Of a DNA stretch of 64,000 bases, positions 4,705 through 58,444 are shown piece after piece. Origin of the DNA: Auricularia sp. M13. Lineage: Eukaryota > Basidiomycota > Agaricomycetes > Auriculariales > Auriculariaceae. The notes under the pieces were generated by a model. It was not told the origin of the DNA and did no database searches. It saw only the letters and a list, made by a program, of their open reading frames with translations. Made by a program: the position numbers and the translations under genes. Each line of letters starts with the position of its first letter. The first letter of the stretch is position 1. The DNA is taken from contig CM073194.1 of assembly GCA_037042915.1 (NCBI GenBank), positions 992,001 to 1,056,000 of the forward strand, given 5' to 3'.

Positions 4705-6048
4705 TCAAGCAAAGCCCTTGACAGTCTTCGGCTGGTATGCCTCTTCGAGGAACTTGGTCTCCTCCTCGGTAAGCTTGACCTTGAGCGAGTCGACGGCCTC
4801 CTGGATGCGTTTCTCCGAGCTCAGACCGACTATCGGCGCTTGACCCTTGCTCAGCACCCACGCAATCGCAACGCTGGCCATCGGGACACCCTTGTCCTTG
4901 GCCACCTTCTCGACGCGGTTCGTGATCTCTTCATCGAGCTGACCCTCGCGCGTGCCCTTCGCATCTCCGAAAATCTGCACAAATAGTCTCAGCAATGGCG
5001 AGAGCAACGGGCGCACTATCACGGACCCTCTTGAACAGCATGTCCGAGCCGGTGCGTGTAGTAGTATTATTGTACGGGCGAGCGAGCACGCCGCGCGCAA
5101 CGGGCGACCACGGGATGAGCCCGACTCCCGTCTTGTTACCTGTAGCCCATGATCAGACTGCATTTCAGTACTAGGCGGGATAGACTCACAAAATGGGATC
5201 ATCTCGCGCTCTTCCTCGCGATAGAGCAGGTTATAGAAGTTTTGCATACTGATGAACTTCGTCCAGCCATGGAGCGTCGCCGTAAACTGAAGCGTCGCGA
5301 ATTCGTGCGCCCACATCGAGCTAGCGCCGATGTAGCGCACTTTCCCGCTCTTGACGACGTCGTGGAGAGCCTCCATAATCTCCTCCGGCGGGGTGTTCTT
5401 GTCCAGCCGGTGGATCTGCAGGACGTCGATGTACGTGCCGAGCCTGGCAACGCTTGCGTCGACGGCGTCAAAGATGTGCTTGCGCGAAAGGCCACTCTGT
5501 GCAATACCTTGGTAAGGGAAATAGCGAGGGCTGTTAGCAAGCTGACGGACCTGATTCACCCATTCGGGGCCTTGAGCGTCCCAGACGCGGTTACCCGGGT
5601 TTTCTTCGTCCACGGCGCCATGGCATTTCGTCTAAACATCCACTGTCAGACAACTGCCAGGCTGCGCAGATCCTTTGCGAACCAAAATGACTAGCTTCTT
5701 CCGCGGAATCTTGTACTTTTCGATTGCCTTGCGCACGACCACCTCGCTCAGACCGTTGCTGTAGACATCGGCCGTATCCCAGCTGCGTAGCATGTCAGGA
5801 CAGCTTTAGAGACGATCATTAGGCAAGGCCGTACGTATTGATACCAGCATCATAGGCCGCTTTGAGCAGGGGCAGACTCTGCTCCTCGTCAAGGACCCAC
5901 TCGGCCCACTTCGACGAGCCGTAACTCATGCAGCCAAGAATAATTTTCGATACTTTCAAGCCAGATGAGCCCAGACTACAATCAGTACCAGTCAGCGTGG
6001 CCTGTTCCTCAAAGCATCGAGACCATGAGCTCACCGCTGGTATTCCAT
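4705..6048 (-). CDS. Aldo-keto reductase, versiconal-hemiacetal-acetate-reductase-like (AKR1)
   Basis: Seven exons (6035..6048, 5835..5975, 5683..5782, 5551..5631, 5190..5496, 5027..5139, 4705..4974) close in frame to 341 residues. The first exon is only 14 nt and encodes MEYQR before the intron. The catalytic tetrad of the AKR barrel is visible: Asp54 (WDTADVYS), Tyr59, Lys87 (VILTKC) and His141 (LQIHRLD). Other family motifs are [49 protein letters not shown] and the NADP-site [11 protein letters not shown]. The reaction is NADPH-dependent reduction of an aldehyde or ketone in the cytosol. The sequence is closest in pattern to the fungal VrdA/YakC-type group rather than to classic aryl-alcohol dehydrogenases; the substrate is unknown. 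A TATATAT box lies about 63 bp upstream. Confidence 0.93.
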
Positions 6049-35306: not shown

Positions 35307-36163
35307 TGTCACGGCAGAGCGCTCGTCACTCGCCGAGACCGACGCCCAAGAGAGGAAAGAGAGACGAGGAAGAACGGACAAGCGGTACAATTGACCAGAC
35401 CAAACCTAGGGTATACGCATCTACACCCTACAACCTATATACCCATCCCCAAGGTCCGCTGATCCGGTCCAGGGTGATCCCGGAGCTAAAGGGTCCATCC
35501 ACCATCGTCTCCCAAGATGCCAACACCCTACCACACCTCCAATCGAACCTGATCCGAGACAGGGCGAAGATGCCGAGGTATGCTATCCGCGCACACTCCC
35601 ACCGGGGGCACGGACCGAGAAGGAGAGCACCTCCCGAGTGCACAGGGAGAGCGCCGAGCTGCTGAGGCCACGGGCCGAGGGTCCGAGGATGTAGCCGAGC
35701 TTGTACCAGGCGATGATAACCGGCCTATTATCCATCCGAGGGGTATCGCACCAACGAGGAGTCCAATAGAGGCGTTCCCGACCCTCCGAGGTTGTTCAGG
35801 GTGACCCACCGAGTCCGCCCGAGGTCAGAAGGGTGGTCCTGGAGCCTGTCCCGAGCACCACAACGCCCATATCCGACGCATACAGCGAGGGGAGAGCTGC
35901 CGAACCTTGGTCCGAGGGTAGGAAGCCTCCACCGAGCCGAATTGGGGTATGCACTGAGGTCGTCTCACCCTCTGGGTGGGAAGAGAGCGGCGTGCAGATC
36001 ATATCCCGAGTTGAACAGCCCAAGGCGTATAACCCTGGCCGAGTCTCCGTCCGAGGGTAAACAGTGCGCCGACTGTATGCAGCAGCGACCGAACGCTCGG
36101 CAAAGCGGCGTAAAACCCGCGGACGAACGGACAGAGCTTGCGACGGCCGTGATGACCGCAACA
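35307..36163. repeat. LTR of element B, left
   Basis: 857 bp, TG..CA ends, near-identical to 38763-39619. Confidence 0.9.
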
Positions 36164-36332
36164 TAACCCCCCCTTCAAGCCGCGAGCCGAGGGACCGTCC
36201 GAGAGAGGGAGGCGAAAGGCGGGGAGGACGAAACAACGGACCGAGGGCGCCGCGGACTGAATAGCAATTCAGTTCGCGGTTTGACATAAAGCTTCGGCCT
36301 GTCAATTTGCTTCTTGTCCTCATACCACCACC

Positions 36333-38762: not shown

Positions 38763-39619
38763 TGTCACGGCAGAGCGCTCGTCACTCGCCGAGACCGACG
38801 CCCAAGAGAGGAGAGAGAGACGAGGAAGAACGGACAAGCGGTACAATTGACCAGACCAAACCTAGGGTATACGCATCTACACCCTACAACCTATATACCC
38901 ATCCCCAAGGTCCGCTGATCCGGTCCAGGGTGATCCCGGAGCTAAAGGGTCCATCCACCATCGTCTCCCAAGATGCCAACACCCTACCACACCTCCAATC
39001 GAACCTGATCCGAGACAGGGCGAAGATGCCGAGGTATGCTATCCGCGCACACTCCCACCGGGGGCACGGACCGAGAAGGAGAGCACCTCCCGAGTGCACA
39101 GGGAGAGCGCCGAGCTGCTGAGGCCACGGGCCGAGGGTCCGAGGATGTAGCCGAGCTTGTACCAGGCGATGATAACCGGCCTATTATCCATCCGAGGGGT
39201 ATCGCACCAACGAGGAGTCCAATAGAGGCGTTCCCGACCCTCCGAGGTTGTTCAGGGTGACCCACCGAGTCCGCCCGAGGTCAGAAGGGTGGTCCTGGAG
39301 CCTGTCCCGAGCACCACAACGCCCATATCCGACGCATACAGCGAGGGGAGAGCTGCCGAACCTTGGTCCGAGGGTAGGAAGCCTCCACCGAGCCGAATTG
39401 GGGTATGCACTGAGGTCGTCTCACCCTCTGGGTGGGAAGAGAGCGGCGTGCAGATCATATCCCGAGTTGAACAGCCCAAGGCGTATAACCCTGGCCGAGT
39501 CTCCGTCCGAGGGTAAACAGTGCGCCGACTGTATGCAGCAGCGACCGAACGCTCGGCAAAGCGGCGTAAAACCCGCGGACGAACGGACAGAGCTTGCGAC
39601 GGCCGTGATGTCCGCAACA
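38763..39619. repeat. LTR of element B, right
   Basis: 857 bp, near-identical to 35307-36163. The roughly 1 kb between the internal frame and this LTR (37764-38762) shows no coding features. Confidence 0.9.
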
Positions 39620-39771
39620 ATAAGCGGTGATAAACCTTCATCACCAGCAAGTCCCCCCACTAAATTTCAACACAAGCCCTACCTGCTAGTAGACTAAATC
39701 ATCCATGAGAACATAATTACGAGTCTTTGGGAGCCGTGGGAGCCGCAGTCATCGGAGCTAGTGTAGCCGGA

Positions 39772-39902
39772 GTCCGGTTCGCGAACCTCCGAACCTCCGA
39801 ACCGAACCCGAACCGAACCGAGGTTCGGGCTGGTTCAGGTTCAGGTTCAGTGCCAAGCCGAACCTCGTCCGAACCGTGTTCAAACCGAACCGAACCTGCG
39901 AA
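39772..39902. repeat. CCGAACC/GGTTCGG sub-terminal repeats, left arm of element C
   Basis: Runs of CCGAACC and their complement GGTTCGG, mirrored at 47835-47945. They can fold into strong hairpins and belong to the hAT element. Confidence 0.8.
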
Positions 39903-40129
39903 CCTCCTCCTATATAAAGCTCATACATCTCAACTTTTCTTGGCTTGGAGACCACATTTATCCCAGTTCTGCTTATGTAATATGTATATCAGCTGTACCA
40001 AGGTGTCTATCAAACCTTAGGCATTGTTAGCAGGGAGCTGGGGAGGCAATCAGATGACATAATACATTCCCACAATGTGATATGCAAGCTTGCAGCTCTA
40101 AAATCGGGCTCTGCAAGACCTTAAAAGAG

Positions 40130-40670
40130 TGTTACGATCATGCCTTCCTATCTACTTCTCTACTGCTCCGATTCACTCCGTTCAACTTTCTAGTAACTTC
40201 TATCGTTTGTTCGCACCACTCGCACACACTCGAACCCTTAGAAACCATTCTAGACCTTTCCTAAGTTTAGATCGCCGGCTGTTGCGTCACCACTCTGTTC
40301 CGAGCATTAACACGTGCTTGTACCGAGTCATACCGGCTATCCGCTTGCTCCGAACTTATCACATGTATTCCGCAGTTCTCTCGAGATGTATATAATGATC
40401 TCGAGCTGTGATATTGATCCCCAGCTAGAAAATCGACTTAGCAACCTTTCCTCTTCTTCCTGCGTCCGACTTTGTCGTCCCGACCGCTCTCGCACTTCTC
40501 TCGACTTCTCGACGTCACCCTCGCTCGTCTCGGGCCTACATCACCTCGAGTAACCCTCGATAGGTTCCGATCGACTTCGATAGGTCCCGCGCACCGTCGC
40601 TCCGCTCGATTCGCACTCTAGGCATTCGCACGATCGAGTTCCGTCCTTCCGTCGCGCATAGCGCTTAACA
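40130..40670 (+). repeat. Element D LTR 1
   Basis: 541 bp with TG..CA ends. The outer left LTR, directly preceded by the AAGAG duplication. Confidence 0.9.
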
Positions 40671-42483
40671 GTATTTTCTAGCTTCCTCCGGAGGCTAGTA
40701 TATGCCAAGGACCGATCCGAACCCAGCAGTCACCAAACGAACCACTCAGAACACTCGTCGGGTCGTTGCTTCTGTCATTGCCTCTGCCGCTAGCTCCTCC
40801 GGCTCCGCATCCGCTCCTCCTCCTTCTCCCGACGTTTCCGGTCCTTCGGTCTCTTCGGTGCCATTTCCCACACTCCTTCGGTCCCCTCTCGCGTCGCCCT
40901 CGGTTCCTGCTATTACCCGATCAATGGCGAACCCTCTCGGACTCTCAGATGACCAATGGGCTGATGTTCAGCAGCTCATTTCGGCTGCTGTCTCTGCTGC
41001 AGTCCAGGCTGCACCCCCTCCTCGTCCGAAGCGCGTCGAGGTCAATCCTCCTGATCCTTTCGACGGCTCGGACCCCTCGAAGGTGCTCGATTTCTTCAAT
41101 CAGTGCGAGCTAGTCTTCCGCACGCGTTCGGATGACTTTTCCGATGACGCGGCGAAGATCAACTATGCTGCCACGTACCTTCGAGGCCAGGCTCAGCGCT
41201 GGTTCATGCCTCATCTCTCACTCGACCCTCCTCCGCCCTCGCCGGGTGGATCGGTGCCCAAGACAGTCCTCAACGCGTGGCCGATGTTCAGGCGCGAACT
41301 CTCGGCTACTCTCGGTCAAACCGATCTCGCTCGCTCTGCGCGCTCAAACTCGCGAACCTCTCGATGTCCGACCACCACCACGTCATGAAGTACTCGATTG
41401 ACTTCTCGGATCTCGCCTCGCACCTCCCGGACCTTTCGGACTCCTCGCTTTTCGCCGATTTCTATCGCGGACTCGCACCACGCATCAAGGACGATCTCGC
41501 GAAGCTCCCTTGGCCAAACTCGTACTCTGAACTCGTGTCCCTCGCTCGATCGATCGATCAGCGGTACTGGGAGCGAAGGGACGAGCAGTCCCGCGAGTCT
41601 CGACGCCCCTCGGCTCGTCCGATGCTCTCGATTCCGGCTCCTGCGACTCCTGCCACTCTCTCGACCTCGTCGACTCCCTCTTCGCAGCGAGAAGCGTTCC
41701 GCCTCTCCTGCTGTCAACCTCGGTGGTATTATCGGCCCCGATGGTAAGCTAACGCCTGCTGAGAAGCAGCGTCGTCGCGATTTAGGTCTGTGTCTCTTCT
41801 GCGGCTCAAGCGAGCATCTTCGCGACGCATGTCCGACTGCTCCGCCCAAATCCGCAATTTCCGGCACCTCCGCGCGCCTCAGCAACCGAGCCGAGCGTCT
41901 CGGGGAGCTCCTCGTAATCGCCTCGCTCTCGAAGACTTCAGTCTTCCCTCGGAGATCCTATCTCCATTTCCGGTGTGTTCTGGTTTCGTCCGCGCACCAT
42001 TCGTCTCGTTCCGCTCTCCCCTCCATTCGCCCCTCTTCCTTTCGATTTCGTTCGAGTCTTCGAGTCTCAGGTATCGCATTCGGCCCTACTAGACATCATT
42101 TCGATTGTCTCAGGGATTCCGATGCACTGTTCCGAGTCCTCCGGCTTTCACGTCTTCGTCCCCTAAAACGTGCACACCCCGATCTGTGTCTCTATCGAGA
42201 CCTTCGGGCACTCACATCCCAGTCATACTTCGATCGCATCGATTGACCCTAACGGGGGGATGATCTTGTCTTGTCCTGTCTTGTCTTGGCCTCTCCCCAC
42301 CTTCGCTTCTCTCCTTCTCGCTCGCTTTTCCCTCGGTCCTGCTCGCTATCATTCGTTTCGCTTCTAATATCATTCAACCATTCCTCGACACCATCCGATG
42401 CCCCTCTACCCATCGATTTCTTTTGTTCGCCACTCGACGTACTCTTAGGCTCCTCGAGGGCTCGTCGCCTAACGGGGGGATAC

Positions 42484-43024
42484 TGTTACGATCATGCCTT
42501 CCTATCTACTTCTCTACTGCTCCGATTCACTCCGTTCAACTTTCTAGTAACTTCTATCGTTTGTTCGCACCACTCGCACACACTCGAACCCTTAGAAACC
42601 ATTCTAGACCTTTCCTAAGTTTAGATCGCCGGCTGTTGCGTCACCACTCTGTTCCGAGCATTAACACGTGCTTGTACCGAGTCATACCGGCTATCCGCTT
42701 GCTCCGAACTTATCACATGTATTCCGCAGTTCTCTCGAGATGTATATAATGATCTCGAGCTGTGATATTGATCCCCAGCTAGAAAATCGACTTAGCAACC
42801 TTTCCTCTTCTTCCTGCGTCCGACTTTGTCGTCCCGACCGCTCTCGCACTTCTCTCGACTTCTCGACGTCACCCTCGCTCGTCTCGGGCCTACATCACCT
42901 CGAGTAACCCTCGATAGGTTCCGATCGACTTCGATAGGTCCCGCGCACCGTCGCTCCGCTCGATTCGCACTCTAGGCATTCGCACGATCGAGTTCCGTCC
43001 TTCCGTCGCGCATAGCGCTTAACA
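42484..43024 (+). repeat. Element D LTR 2 (shared)
   Basis: 541 bp, preceded by the purine-rich CTAACGGGGGGA tract that serves as the 3' end signal of internal unit 1. Confidence 0.9.
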
Positions 43025-44837
43025 GTATTTTCTAGCTTCCTCCGGAGGCTAGTATATGCCAAGGACCGATCCGAACCCAGCAGTCACCAAACGAACCACT
43101 CAGAACACTCGTCGGGTCGTTGCTTCTGTCATTGCCTCTGCCGCTAGCTCCTCCGGCTCCGCATCCGCTCCTCCTCCTTCTCCCGACGTTTCCGGTCCTT
43201 CGGTCTCTTCGGTGCCATTTCCCACACTCCTTCGGTCCCCTCTCGCGTCGCCCTCGGTTCCTGCTATTACCCGATCAATGGCGAACCCTCTCGGACTCTC
43301 AGATGACCAATGGGCTGATGTTCAGCAGCTCATTTCGGCTGCTGTCTCTGCTGCAGTCCAGGCTGCACCCCCTCCTCGTCCGAAGCGCGTCGAGGTCAAT
43401 CCTCCTGATCCTTTCGACGGCTCGGACCCCTCGAAGGTGCTCGATTTCTTCAATCAGTGCGAGCTAGTCTTCCGCACGCGTTCGGATGACTTTTCCGATG
43501 ACGCGGCGAAGATCAACTATGCTGCCACGTACCTTCGAGGCCAGGCTCAGCGCTGGTTCATGCCTCATCTCTCACTCGACCCTCCTCCGCCCTCGCCGGG
43601 TGGATCGGTGCCCAAGACAGTCCTCAACGCGTGGCCGATGTTCAGGCGCGAACTCTCGGCTACTCTCGGTCAAACCGATCTCGCTCGCTCTGCCGCGCTC
43701 AAACTCGCGAACCTCTCGATGTCCGACCACCACCACGTCATGAAGTACTCGATTGACTTCTCGGATCTCGCCTCGCACCTCCCGGACCTTTCGGACTCCT
43801 CGCTTTTCGCCGATTTCTATCGCGGACTCGCACCACGCATCAAGGACGATCTCGCGAAGCTCCCTTGGCCAAACTCGTACTCTGAACTCGTGTCCCTCGC
43901 TCGATCGATCGATCAGCGGTACTGGGAGCGAAGGGACGAGCAGTCCCGCGAGTCTCGACGCCCCTCGGCTCGTCCGATGCTCTCGATTCCGGCTCCTGCG
44001 ACTCCTGCCACTCTCTCGACCTCGTCGACTCCCTCTTCGCAGCGAGAAGCGTTCCGCCTCTCCTGCTGTCAACCTCGGTGGTATTATCGGCCCCGATGGT
44101 AAGCTAACGCCTGCTGAGAAGCAGCGTCGTCGCGATTTAGGTCTGTGTCTCTTCTGCGGCTCAAGCGAGCATCTTCGCGACGCATGTCCGACTGCTCCGC
44201 CCAAATCCGCAATTTCCGGCACCTCCGCGCGCCTCAGCAACCGAGCCGAGCGTCTCGGGAGCTCCTCGTAATCGCCTCGCTCTCGAAGACTTCAGTCTTC
44301 CCTCGGAGATCCTATCTCCATTTCCGGTGTGTTCTGGTTTCGTCCGCGCACCATTCGTCTCGTTCCGCTCTCCCCTCCATTCGCCCCTCTTCCTTTCGAT
44401 TTCGTTCGAGTCTTCGAGTCTCAGGTATCGCATTCGGCCCTACTAGACATCATTTCGATTGTCTCAGGGATTCCGATGCACTGTTCCGAGTCCTCCGGCT
44501 TTCACGTCTTCGTCCCCTAAAACGTGCACACCCCGATCTGTGTCTCTATCGAGACCTTCGGGCACTCACATCCCAGTCATACTTCGATCGCATCGATTGA
44601 CCCTAACGGGGGGATGATCTTGTCTTGTCCTGTCTTGTCTTGGCCTCTCCCCACCTTCGCTTCTCTCCTTCTCGCTCGCTTTTCCCTCGGTCCTGCTCGC
44701 TATCATTCGTTTCGCTTCTAATATCATTCAACCATTCCTCGACACCATCCGATGCCCCTCTACCCATCGATTTCTTTTGTTCGCCACTCGACGTACTCTT
44801 AGGCTCCTCGAGGGCTCGTCGCCTAACGGGGGGATAC

Positions 44838-45378
44838 TGTTACGATCATGCCTTCCTATCTACTTCTCTACTGCTCCGATTCACTCCGTTCAACTTTCTA
44901 GTAACTTCTATCGTTTGTTCGCACCACTCGCACACACTCGAACCCTTAGAAACCATTCTAGACCTTTCCTAAGTTTAGATCGCCGGCTGTTGCGTCACCA
45001 CTCTGTTCCGAGCATTAACACGTGCTTGTACCGAGTCATACCGGCTATCCGCTTGCTCCGAACTTATCACATGTATTCCGCAGTTCTCTCGAGATGTATA
45101 TAATGATCTCGAGCTGTGATATTGATCCCCAGCTAGAAAATCGACTTAGCAACCTTTCCTCTTCTTCCTGCGTCCGACTTTGTCGTCCCGACCGCTCTCG
45201 CACTTCTCTCGACTTCTCGACGTCACCCTCGCTCGTCTCGGGCCTACATCACCTCGAGTAACCCTCGATAGGTTCCGATCGACTTCGATAGGTCCCGCGC
45301 ACCGTCGCTCCGCTCGATTCGCACTCTAGGCATTCGCACGATCGAGTTCCGTCCTTCCGTCGCGCATAGCGCTTAACA
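44838..45378 (+). repeat. Element D LTR 3 (shared)
   Basis: 541 bp, preceded by the same purine-rich tract and near-identical to LTRs 1, 2 and 4. Confidence 0.9.
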
Positions 45379-45409
45379 GTATTTTCTAGCTTCCTCCGGA
45401 GGCTAGTAT

Positions 45410-46630
45410 ATGCCAAGGACCGATCCGAACCCAGCAGTCACCAAACGAACCACTCAGAACACTCGTCGGGTCGTTGCTTCTGTCATTGCCTCTGCCGCTA
45501 GCTCCTCCGGCTCCGCATCCGCTCCTCCTCCTTCTCCCGACGTTTCCGGTCCTTCGGTCTCTTCGGTGCCATTTCCCACACTCCTTCGGTCCCCTCTCGC
45601 GTCGCCCTCGGTTCCTGCTATTACCCGATCAATGGCGAACCCTCTCGGACTCTCAGATGACCAATGGGCTGATGTTCAGCAGCTCATTTCGGCTGCTGTC
45701 TCTGCTGCAGTCCAGGCTGCACCCCCTCCTCGTCCGAAGCGCGTCGAGGTCAATCCTCCTGATCCTTTCGACGGCTCGGACCCCTCGAAGGTGCTCGATT
45801 TCTTCAATCAGTGCGAGCTAGTCTTCCGCACGCGTTCGGATGACTTTTCCGATGACGCGGCGAAGATCAACTATGCTGCCACGTACCTTCGAGGCCAGGC
45901 TCAGCGCTGGTTCATGCCTCATCTCTCACTCGACCCTCCTCCGCCCTCGCCGGGTGGATCGGTGCCCAAGACAGTCCTCAACGCGTGGCCGATGTTCAGG
46001 CGCGAACTCTCGGCTACTCTCGGTCAAACCGATCTCGCTCGCTCTGCCGCGCTCAAACTCGCGAACCTCTCGATGTCCGACCACCACCACGTCATGAAGT
46101 ACTCGATTGACTTCTCGGATCTCGCCTCGCACCTCCCGGACCTTTCGGACTCCTCGCTTTTCGCCGATTTCTATCGCGGACTCGCACCACGCATCAAGGA
46201 CGATCTCGCGAAGCTCCCTTGGCCAAACTCGTACTCTGAACTCGTGTCCCTCGCTCGATCGATCGATCAGCGGTACTGGGAGCGAAGGGACGAGCAGTCC
46301 CGCGAGTCTCGACGCCCCTCGGCTCGTCCGATGCTCTCGATTCCGGCTCCTGCGACTCCTGCCACTCTCTCGACCTCGTCGACTCCCTCTTCGCAGCGCG
46401 AGAAGCGTTCCGCCTCTCCTGCTGTCAACCTCGGTGGTATTATCGGCCCCGATGGTAAGCTAACGCCTGCTGAGAAGCAGCGTCGTCGCGATTTAGGTCT
46501 GTGTCTCTTCTGCGGCTCAAGCGAGCATCTTCGCGACGCATGTCCGACTGCTCCGCCCAAATCCGCAATTTCCGGCACCTCCGCGCGCGCCTCAGCAACC
46601 GAGCCGAGCGTCTCGGGGAGCTCCTCGTAA
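45410..46630 (+). CDS. Gag polyprotein of element D, third unit
   Basis: A 406-residue frame. A Pro/Ser/Ala-rich N-terminus is followed by the retrotransposon gag domain (PPDPFDGSDPSKVLDFFNQC, LVFRTRSDDFSDDAAKINYA, TYLRGQAQRWF), then FYRGLAPRIKDDLAKLPWPN and a CCHC zinc knuckle CLFCGSSEHLRDACP. It would form the particle shell and bind RNA. Without pol it would need enzymes from a related full element elsewhere in the genome. Confidence 0.88.
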   Translation: MPRTDPNPAVTKRTTQNTRRVVASVIASAASSSGSASAPPPSPDVSGPSVSSVPFPTLLRSPLASPSVPAITRSMANPLGLSDDQWADVQQLISAAVSAAVQAAPPPRPKRVEVNPPDPFDGSDPSKVLDFFNQCELVFRTRSDDFSDDAAKINYAATYLRGQAQRWFMPHLSLDPPPPSPGGSVPKTVLNAWPMFRRELSATLGQTDLARSAALKLANLSMSDHHHVMKYSIDFSDLASHLPDLSDSSLFADFYRGLAPRIKDDLAKLPWPNSYSELVSLARSIDQRYWERRDEQSRESRRPSARPMLSIPAPATPATLSTSSTPSSQREKRSASPAVNLGGIIGPDGKLTPAEKQRRRDLGLCLFCGSSEHLRDACPTAPPKSAISGTSARASATEPSVSGSSS

Positions 46631-47196
46631 TCGCCTCGCTCTCGAAGACTTCAGTCTTCCCTCGGAGATCCTATCTCCATTTCCGGTGTGTTCTGGTTTC
46701 GTCCGCGCACCATTCGTCTCGTTCCGCTCTCCCCTCCATTCGCCCCTCTTCCTTTCGATTTCGTTCGAGTCTTCGAGTCTCAGGTATCGCATTCGGCCCT
46801 ACTAGACATCATTTCGATTGTCTCAGGGATTCCGATGCACTGTTCCGAGTCCTCCGGCTTTCACGTCTTCGTCCCCTAAAACGTGCACACCCCGATCTGT
46901 GTCTCTATCGAGACCTTCGGGCACTCACATCCCAGTCATACTTCGATCGCATCGATTGACCCTAACGGGGGGATGATCTTGTCTTGTCCTGTCTTGTCTT
47001 GGCCTCTCCCCACCTTCGCTTCTCTCCTTCTCGCTCGCTTTTCCCTCGGTCCTGCTCGCTATCATTCGTTTCGCTTCTAATATCATTCAACCATTCCTCG
47101 ACACCATCCGATGCCCCTCTACCCATCGATTTCTTTTGTTCGCCACTCGACGTACTCTTAGGCTCCTCGAGGGCTCGTCGCCTAACGGGGGGATAC

Positions 47197-47737
47197 TGTT
47201 ACGATCATGCCTTCCTATCTACTTCTCTACTGCTCCGATTCACTCCGTTCAACTTTCTAGTAACTTCTATCGTTTGTTCGCACCACTCGCACACACTCGA
47301 ACCCTTAGAAACCATTCTAGACCTTTCCTAAGTTTAGATCGCCGGCTGTTGCGTCACCACTCTGTTCCGAGCATTAACACGTGCTTGTACCGAGTCATAC
47401 CGGCTATCCGCTTGCTCCGAACTTATCACATGTATTCCGCAGTTCTCTCGAGATGTATATAATGATCTCGAGCTGTGATATTGATCCCCAGCTAGAAAAT
47501 CGACTTAGCAACCTTTCCTCTTCTTCCTGCGTCCGACTTTGTCGTCCCGACCGCTCTCGCACTTCTCTCGACTTCTCGACGTCACCCTCGCTCGTCTCGG
47601 GCCTACATCACCTCGAGTAACCCTCAATAGGTTCCGATCGACTTCGATAGGTCCCGCGCACCGTCGCTCCGCTCGATTCGCACTCTAGGCATTCGCACGA
47701 TCGAGTTCCGTCCTTCCGTCGCGCATAGCGCTTAACA
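47197..47737 (+). repeat. Element D LTR 4
   Basis: 541 bp. The outer right LTR, directly followed by the AAGAG duplication. Confidence 0.9.
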
Positions 47738-48009
47738 AAGAGTCATAATCATCAATTATGATCAAGCACCATCCATATGCGCTTCATACTAGCACTTGAA
47801 GTATCTATCCATGAGTATATAGTGTGTTCAGGTGCGAACCCCGAACCGAACCCGAACCGAACCCCAGGTTCGGGTTTGATGGTTCGGGACCAGGTTCGGT
47901 TCGAGGTTCGGAAAAAATGCCGCCGAACCGCACCGAACCGAACATCGGCTACACTAATCGGAGCGGAATGTCCAGTGGAGCTGTGGAGCAGGCTTGTATC
48001 CTTCGCTCC

Positions 48010-57156: not shown

Positions 57157-58444
57157 ATGGAGTACCAACGGTACGCTGCCTAGTACCGTCACGCGACGTC
57201 TGGTGCTGACGGGTTGTGGTAGACTGGGAAACTCGGGCCTGCGCGTGTCCAAGATCATCCTGGGCTGCATGTCGTACGGCACGCCGAAGTGGCAGAGCTG
57301 GGTGCTCGACGAGGAGGCCAGTCTGCCGCTGCTCAAGGCCGCGTATGATGCCGGCATTAACACGTACATATGTCCGACCGTCGAGATGTCTGATAAGCTG
57401 ATTGGTTGGTAGGTGGGACACGGCGGACGCGTACAGCCACGGGCAGAGCGAGCGCATCGTGGGCAAGGCGATCGCCAAGTACGGCATCCCGCGGAAGAAG
57501 CTCGTCATCCTCGTGCGTCGCAACCTGCGTTGTTTGGTTTCTCACTCGCATTCCACATCTGGCAGACGAAATGCTACTTCGCAGTGGACGAAGCGCACCC
57601 CGAATCCGGGTTCATCATGCCCCCGCCGACCGACGGCGCGTACATCAACCAGCACGGCCTCTCGCGCAAGCACATCCTGGACGCAGTAGACGCCAGCATC
57701 GCGCGTCTGGGCACGTACATCGATGTCCTGCAGATCCACCGGCTGGACAAGGACACGCCGCCCGAGGAGATCATGCAGGCGCTGCACGACGTCGTCCGGA
57801 GCGGCAAAGTGAGGTATATCGGCGCGAGCTCGATGTGGGCGCATGAGTTTGCCACGCTGCAGTTCACGGCGTCGTTGCATGGCTGGACGAAGTTCATCTC
57901 CATGCAGAACTTTTATAATCTGTTGTATCGCGAGGAGGAGCGCGAGATGATCCCGTTCTGTACGTCGCTTTATTCGAAGCGGACGCTTGCCGCTGAGCTG
58001 ACTATCCGGACGCGCGACAGGCAACAAGACGGGCGTGGGCCTCATCCCCTGGTCGCCCATCGCGCGCGGGCGGCTCGCGCGCCCGTGGACGCAGAGCGAC
58101 ACCGTGCGCGCGGGGTCGGACGCCTGGGTGAAGGTGCGTCCCCGCTCCCCGCTCCCCTTCCCACCTTTCAACCTCTCACCGCCCTTCACTTTCAGCTATT
58201 CGGCGCAGACGCAGACGAGGAGATCGCGAGGCGCGTGGAGAAGGTCGCGAAGGACCGCGGGGTGCCGATGACGGCGGTGGCGATCGCCTGGGTTGTGAGC
58301 AAAGGCCAGGCGCCCATCGTCGGCCTCAGCTCGGAGAAGCGCATCAAGGAGGCCGTCGAGGCGCTCAAGCTCAAGCTCACTGAGGAGGAGACGAAGTATC
58401 TCGAGGAGCCGTATGTGCCGAAGCCTGTTGTTGGCTTTTCGTGA
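57157..58444 (+). CDS. Aldo-keto reductase, versiconal-hemiacetal-acetate-reductase-like (AKR3)
   Basis: Six exons (57157..57170, 57223..57363, 57413..57512, 57566..57959, 58021..58133, 58196..58444) close to 336 residues. The intron that separates exons 4 and 5 in AKR1 and AKR2 is absent: its 394-nt exon equals 87+307. Asp54, Tyr59, Lys87 and His143 are in place ([27 protein letters not shown]). Other motifs are [55 protein letters not shown] and [20 protein letters not shown]. The end is [15 protein letters not shown]. It is closest to AKR4, which shares the intron loss and the EEPYVPKP tail. Confidence 0.94.

Follow-up and report, generated by a model that had tools for sequence, protein, structure and literature searches.

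The locus considered here raises the question of how a retrotransposon with no detectable pol has come to stand three units deep at a single site, and of how such an element could prime its own reverse transcription. The array lies within a 64,000-nt window (C2:992001-1056000) of the 52.1-Mb, 14-contig assembly of Auricularia sp. M13 and, as assembled, consists of four 541-bp long terminal repeats (LTRs) alternating with three internal units, with an LTR at both ends. We consider it probable that the array represents a non-autonomous, Gag-only, self-priming element of the Ty3/Gypsy type, which would obtain pol functions in trans, inserted once, and was multiplied in place by LTR-LTR recombination.

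An earlier, sequence-only reading of the window described four near-identical LTRs and three internal units with periods of 2,354, 2,354 and 2,359 bp, and coordinates and alignments bear this description out. Specifically, the spacing from LTR start to LTR start is 2354, 2354 and 2359 bp, and the internal units measure 1813, 1813 and 1818 bp. LTRs 1-3 are identical, while LTR 4 differs from them by one substitution, at LTR position 430; as all three solo LTRs of the family found elsewhere in the genome carry the base of LTRs 1-3, the substitution is private to LTR 4. The three internal units show no substitutions and differ by four indels of 1-2 bases. Repeats of such length and identity are far beyond chance, and the structure of the array is real, as assembled. 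Ageing repeats usually accumulate not only indels, and indels without substitutions, being the inverse of the usual mutation spectrum, make residual sequencing error in the units a live possibility. The same pattern bears on the proposal that one or two real units were repeated by the assembler: the sole differences between the internal units are small indels within short GC-rich repeats, with no substitution, and these indels resemble residual long-read error in a repeat beyond the reach of polishing. Such an artefact nonetheless appears distinctly unlikely, given that the units are non-identical, that LTR 4 carries its private substitution, and that both outer junctions are clean and flanked by matching target duplications.

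The surroundings of the array speak to the number of insertions involved. The 5-bp target duplication AAGAG is found once per side, at the outer edges only, whereas the inner LTRs are bordered instead by the primer site and the polypurine tract. The array splits a miniature inverted-repeat transposable element (MITE), classed as hAT-like solely from its inverted ends and 8-bp duplication; the genome contains further copies of this MITE. The nearest of these (L043, on C11; 97.6% alike) aligns across the junction with a single AAGAG and no gap there. The five other MITE copies examined (L044-L048) show about 93% likeness and carry ten extra bases beside the insertion site; they thus belong to a related subtype and do not represent the same empty site. 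The MITE is itself nested in another repeat, the empty site of which is seen in both of the loci examined (L051 and L052). The single AAGAG pair and the uninterrupted paralogous MITE site together indicate a series of nested insertions in which the LTR element entered once, in agreement with the earlier proposal of one insertion with one target duplication. Near this site, a 123-bp repeat with further genome copies is found at 39501-39623 and, 98% identical, at 36045-36166.

The family was traced by genome-wide searches, in which match counts are lower bounds. At least seven matches were obtained with the LTR, comprising the four in the array and three solo LTRs, which carry 11, 13 and 16 differences of 541 and are each flanked by a perfect 5-bp duplication. 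Perfect 5-bp duplications are thus present at all four family loci found, indicating that the family moved by integration. When the internal unit was used as query, the three array units were recovered together with one short match, at the locus of the gag-less element L058 described below. The search for single-unit copies that had been suggested earlier therefore has a divided outcome: family members exist elsewhere, as the solo LTRs, and the assembly search yielded no further copy of the internal unit. Similarly, no dispersed complete Gag-only copies were found, the array being the one complete locus and the three solo LTRs the remainder. A Gag query returned at least 99 matches, six of them from the array. 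Among 56 polypurine-tract/LTR junctions (up to two mismatches allowed), repeated short spacing occurs only at this array, and the 21 LTR matches of the gag-less family include three same-strand pairs at distances of up to 8 kb and never three in succession. On this partial survey, the array looks exceptional in the genome. Two plus-strand junctions at C10:2005339 and 2012376, 7,037 bp apart, constitute a possible second tandem.

The coding content of the array is confined, as far as can be detected, to gag. The Gag of unit 3 matches the Pfam domain Retrotrans_gag at 29.4 bits (cut-off 24.1) and scores 29 against Ty3_capsid, just under the cut-off of 29.1; a CCHC knuckle is located at Gag residues 365-378. 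In units 1 and 2 the gag frames stop early, after 228 and 348 codons respectively, because of the small indels noted above. None of the seven forward open stretches of at least 30 aa that follow gag matches Pfam (up to an expectation value, E, of 1), and neither do the four of 11 reverse-strand open stretches that were searched (up to E 1). These data uphold the earlier description of a gag with a CCHC knuckle and no pol, and the search for a pol-bearing copy with the same LTR, which that reading had called for, has now been run on the 52.1-Mb assembly and found none.

Deletion is a common origin of non-autonomous LTR elements, and the array could in principle have arisen recently by internal deletion from a gag-pol element bearing the same LTR, as a dead-on-arrival copy belonging to no trans-mobilised lineage. 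Its parent might be missing from the single isolate sequenced, and weak tblastx matches link the post-gag region to pol-bearing relatives (best E 0.005, to L060), on both strands. A pol relic after gag was examined as a candidate and rejected: matches to L059 and L060 are weak only (E 0.005 to 0.1) and fall on both strands, while matches to the gag-less L058 reach E values down to 7e-8, likewise on both strands, such that all of these are read as probable composition and shared non-coding sequence, not pol. Set against a deletion origin, moreover, are the failure to find, in the assembly, any gag-pol element that has either this LTR or a closely similar Gag, the lack of a Pfam match in all seven forward post-gag stretches, and the resemblance of the 3' region of the array to the gag-less family instead. 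The divergence of the solo LTRs (11, 13 and 16 of 541) further shows older activity of the family, though it does not tell what formerly lay between those LTRs. Taken together, these data make a deletion derivative very unlikely.

Relatives of two kinds are present in the same genome. L059 and L060, the only pol-bearing relatives checked, both show RVT_1, RNase H, integrase and Tf2-type SH3 matches; a chromodomain match is present in L059, and none was obtained at E 0.01 in the stretch of L060 that was searched. The LTR termini (TGTTACG...TAACA) and polypurine tracts of these elements are similar to those of the array. L058, by contrast, lacks a gag detectable by tblastn up to E 1; its LTR has 21 genome matches, and this copy shows no visible target duplication. 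The 3' region of the array aligns with L058 by blastn over 60 bp (82%), 41 bp (88%) and 24 bp (92%). Some hundreds of bases upstream of the polypurine tract proper, both the Gag-only array and L058 (at L058:5526) carry a second site resembling such a tract, and the pol-bearing element on C8 has a similar site inside pol.

These elements also share a signal in the form of a matched pair of short sequences. In the array, ATTTTCTAGCT, two bases past the LTR, is the exact 11-nt complement of AGCTAGAAAAT at LTR position 294. The same geometry, in different letters, is found in L058 and in the two pol-bearing elements (C3, L060; C8, L059), so that an exact 11-nt pair occurs at the same offset in four of the four families examined, and in all four the start of a TATA-like box precedes the primer by 34-35 nt. 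In a cross table, the longest exact complement is 11 nt within each family's own LTR versus 5-7 nt in the LTRs of the other families, and among shuffled LTRs (2,000 per family) the longest match is 9 nt. Among 24 other Gag loci surveyed, a subset of the 93 non-array Gag matches, 21 bear the exact pair, all of the C3 type; being copies of one family, these are not independent events. The independent evidence for self-priming is the four different matched pairs, whose covariation is as would be expected of self-priming of the Tf1/sushi type, a mechanism described previously (PMC10085805). No TGG-type tRNA primer site is seen directly after the LTR, as judged by eye and without comparison of tRNA 3' ends. 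Folding, confined to positions 40640-40760, yields a hairpin beside the primer site (z -2.38).

These observations suggest the following course of events. The RNA would start in the LTR just past the TATA box, and its first 11 nt would anneal two bases past the LTR and there prime reverse transcription. Gag would be supplied by the element itself, while reverse transcriptase, RNase H and integrase would be provided in trans by gag-pol elements of the same genome, namely those with similar LTR termini and polypurine tracts. Such a supply in trans is suggested by the combination of no pol, integrations with target duplications, and terminal signals similar to those of the pol-bearing elements. 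Following insertion into the MITE, homologous LTR-LTR recombination, either as unequal sister exchange or as recombination of cDNA into the resident copy, would have generated the three units. The RNA start, expression, trans supply and recombination route are each what we infer from sequence.

Several observations weigh against this explanation. Firstly, the RNA, cDNA and mobility attributed to the array are predicted ones, and gag is open (406 codons) in unit 3 only, as assembled. Secondly, the helper is a candidate set of elements: the Gags most similar to that of the array share about 36% identity with it across Gag residues 110-334, the LTR of the array aligns with that of the gag-less family over 18 and 13 bp only, and a whole-genome search with the array LTR found no other family. 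Thirdly, the exact priming pair is missing at three of the 24 other Gag loci (L034, a one-base variant of the site; L028, a site without an exact complement in the upstream stretch available; and L023), and the survey for other tandem loci is partial, as it does not extend to two pairs of same-strand junctions with spacings of 7,037 and 12,934 bp. Lastly, the one target duplication, the intact inner LTRs and the near-identical units fit equally well with the integration, in a single event and with no later recombination, of a multimeric cDNA derived from a read-through transcript or a one-LTR circle, a route discussed as open for plant tandems (PMC11899658). The lone substitution of LTR 4 does not discriminate between the two. 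The assembly yielded no further full copy of the family, however, and reported variation in the number of units at Tf2-7/8 of fission yeast favours later recombination in elements of this kind (PMC10836971). On account of that variation, recombination after insertion is favoured here, and we regard multimer integration as unlikely.

The array provides a clean case with which to ask how an element without reverse transcriptase borrows pol while sharing little beyond terminal signals with any helper, a question made testable by the matched self-priming pairs that four families of one genome carry. The array also extends shared-LTR tandems to a Gag-only fungal element, and its unit number is a marker that can be scored between isolates. 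It is possible, though we put it forward only tentatively, that fungal genomes hold self-sustaining Gag-only and gag-less LTR families whose self-priming pairs covary independently of a gag-pol helper. Were this true, such parasites, being self-primed, would have no need of the tRNA primer site that their helper uses and could diverge in both LTR and Gag while continuing to borrow pol, and tandem growth at one site would be a means of persistence when full copies are few.

Table 1. Features of the array, its host site and a gag-less relative (positions are those of the window unless a locus is named).
Feature	Position	Strand	Details
Target duplication of host MITE, ATCGGAGC, left copy	39751..39758	.	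8 bp
hAT-like MITE split by the array	39759..47956	.	ends TAGTGTAGCCG...CGGCTACACTA; 585 bp without insert
Target duplication of LTR element, AAGAG, left copy	40125..40129	.	5 bp
LTR 1	40130..40670	+	
TATA box	40389..40395	+	starts 34 bp upstream of self-primer; also at 42743, 45097, 47456
Presumed RNA 5' end / self-primer, AGCTAGAAAAT	40423..40433	+	also at 42777, 45131, 47490
Internal unit 1	40671..42483	+	gag frame broken by small indels
Primer-binding site, ATTTTCTAGCT	40673..40683	+	also at 43027, 45381
Second polypurine-tract-like site	42251..42264	+	also at 44605, 46964
Polypurine tract adjoining LTR	42471..42483	+	also at 44825, 47184
LTR 2	42484..43024	+	shared
Internal unit 2	43025..44837	+	gag frame broken by small indels
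LTR 3	44838..45378	+	shared
Internal unit 3	45379..47196	+	
gag	45410..46630	+	406 aa, open; Retrotrans_gag domain; CCHC knuckle at 46502-46543
LTR 4	47197..47737	+	one private substitution
Target duplication of LTR element, AAGAG, right copy	47738..47742	.	
Target duplication of host MITE, ATCGGAGC, right copy	47957..47964	.	
Gag-less LTR element L058	L058:3798-6722 (C10:229000-236000)		LTRs about 763 bp, 94% alike; 1.4-kb internal

Elsewhere in the window, aldo/keto reductase domains are found in two open frames, at 4708-5631 on the minus strand and 57413-58441 on the plus strand, together with a SKN1/KRE6 domain, which is fungal. This domain and a single hydrophobin match, over its cut-off but weak, are consistent with a fungal host.

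Comparison with known systems places the array among several well-described groups. The sequence-only reading regarded such an array as unusual for a fungus, a view not borne out in the light of Tf2-7/8 of Schizosaccharomyces pombe, a tandem at one locus in which the central LTR is shared and which comprises two, three or four copies depending upon the laboratory strain (PMC10836971). Like the array, Tf2-7/8 is a shared-LTR tandem at one locus, and Tf2 belongs to the self-priming group; Tf2, however, carries both gag and pol (PMC10085805), whereas the unit of the array carries gag only. Shared-LTR tandems are also common in plants, as illustrated by rice TLI2, in which three LTRs and two internals lie inside a Mutator-like element (MULE). 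Conserved retrotransposon domains are encoded by each set member among the 28 tandems chosen from Nipponbare rice; the authors of that study could not separate LTR-LTR recombination from multimer integration (PMC11899658). Tandems of the TLI2 type resemble the array in their shared inner LTRs, single 5-bp duplication and nesting in a DNA transposon, and differ from it in their plant host and conserved domains, the array being built of a small Gag-only unit in a fungus. Tandem terminal-repeat retrotransposons in miniature (TRIMs) such as Cassandra and Wukong are likewise non-autonomous and arranged head to tail with shared LTRs (PMC7215508, PMC4528315), but are shorter and without gag, while the units of the array carry gag.

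The array had also been matched to the TR-GAG class of plant elements (PMC10552921). The architecture on which that match was founded, LTRs and gag with no pol, stands; the array departs from TR-GAG in its self-priming site and in its chromovirus-like relatives, and a polypurine tract is present. Complete Gag-only copies dispersed as a family, a further feature of that class, were not found among the loci recovered, whose counts are lower bounds. The plant elements have a tRNA-type priming site. Owing to the Tf1/sushi-type priming site and the chromovirus-like, pol-bearing relatives, the array is more aptly regarded as an independent analogue of the plant group than placed within it. In general, autonomous elements and their non-autonomous relatives frequently coexist in one genome (PMC3248453). 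No Gag-only self-priming tandem from a fungus was encountered in literature titles and abstract openings, most subscription papers lying outside that scope such that this is no proof of absence, nor in the available portions of PMC2864245, PMC5872316 and PMC3248453.

New relative to the earlier reading are the nesting in a MITE, the self-priming pair, the solo LTRs and the gag-less cousin family. The tandem form is already known; less expected are independent, matched self-priming pairs in Gag-only and gag-less elements beside pol-bearing relatives. A parallel in this respect is offered by the Tf1/sushi chromoviruses, in which, as in the array with its predicted RNA start, the self-primer is complementary to a site just past the LTR. 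Those chromoviruses have a pol with a chromodomain integrase, and since no pol has been found in the array it is not filed here as a member of the Tf1/sushi group; the claim is that it primes like one.

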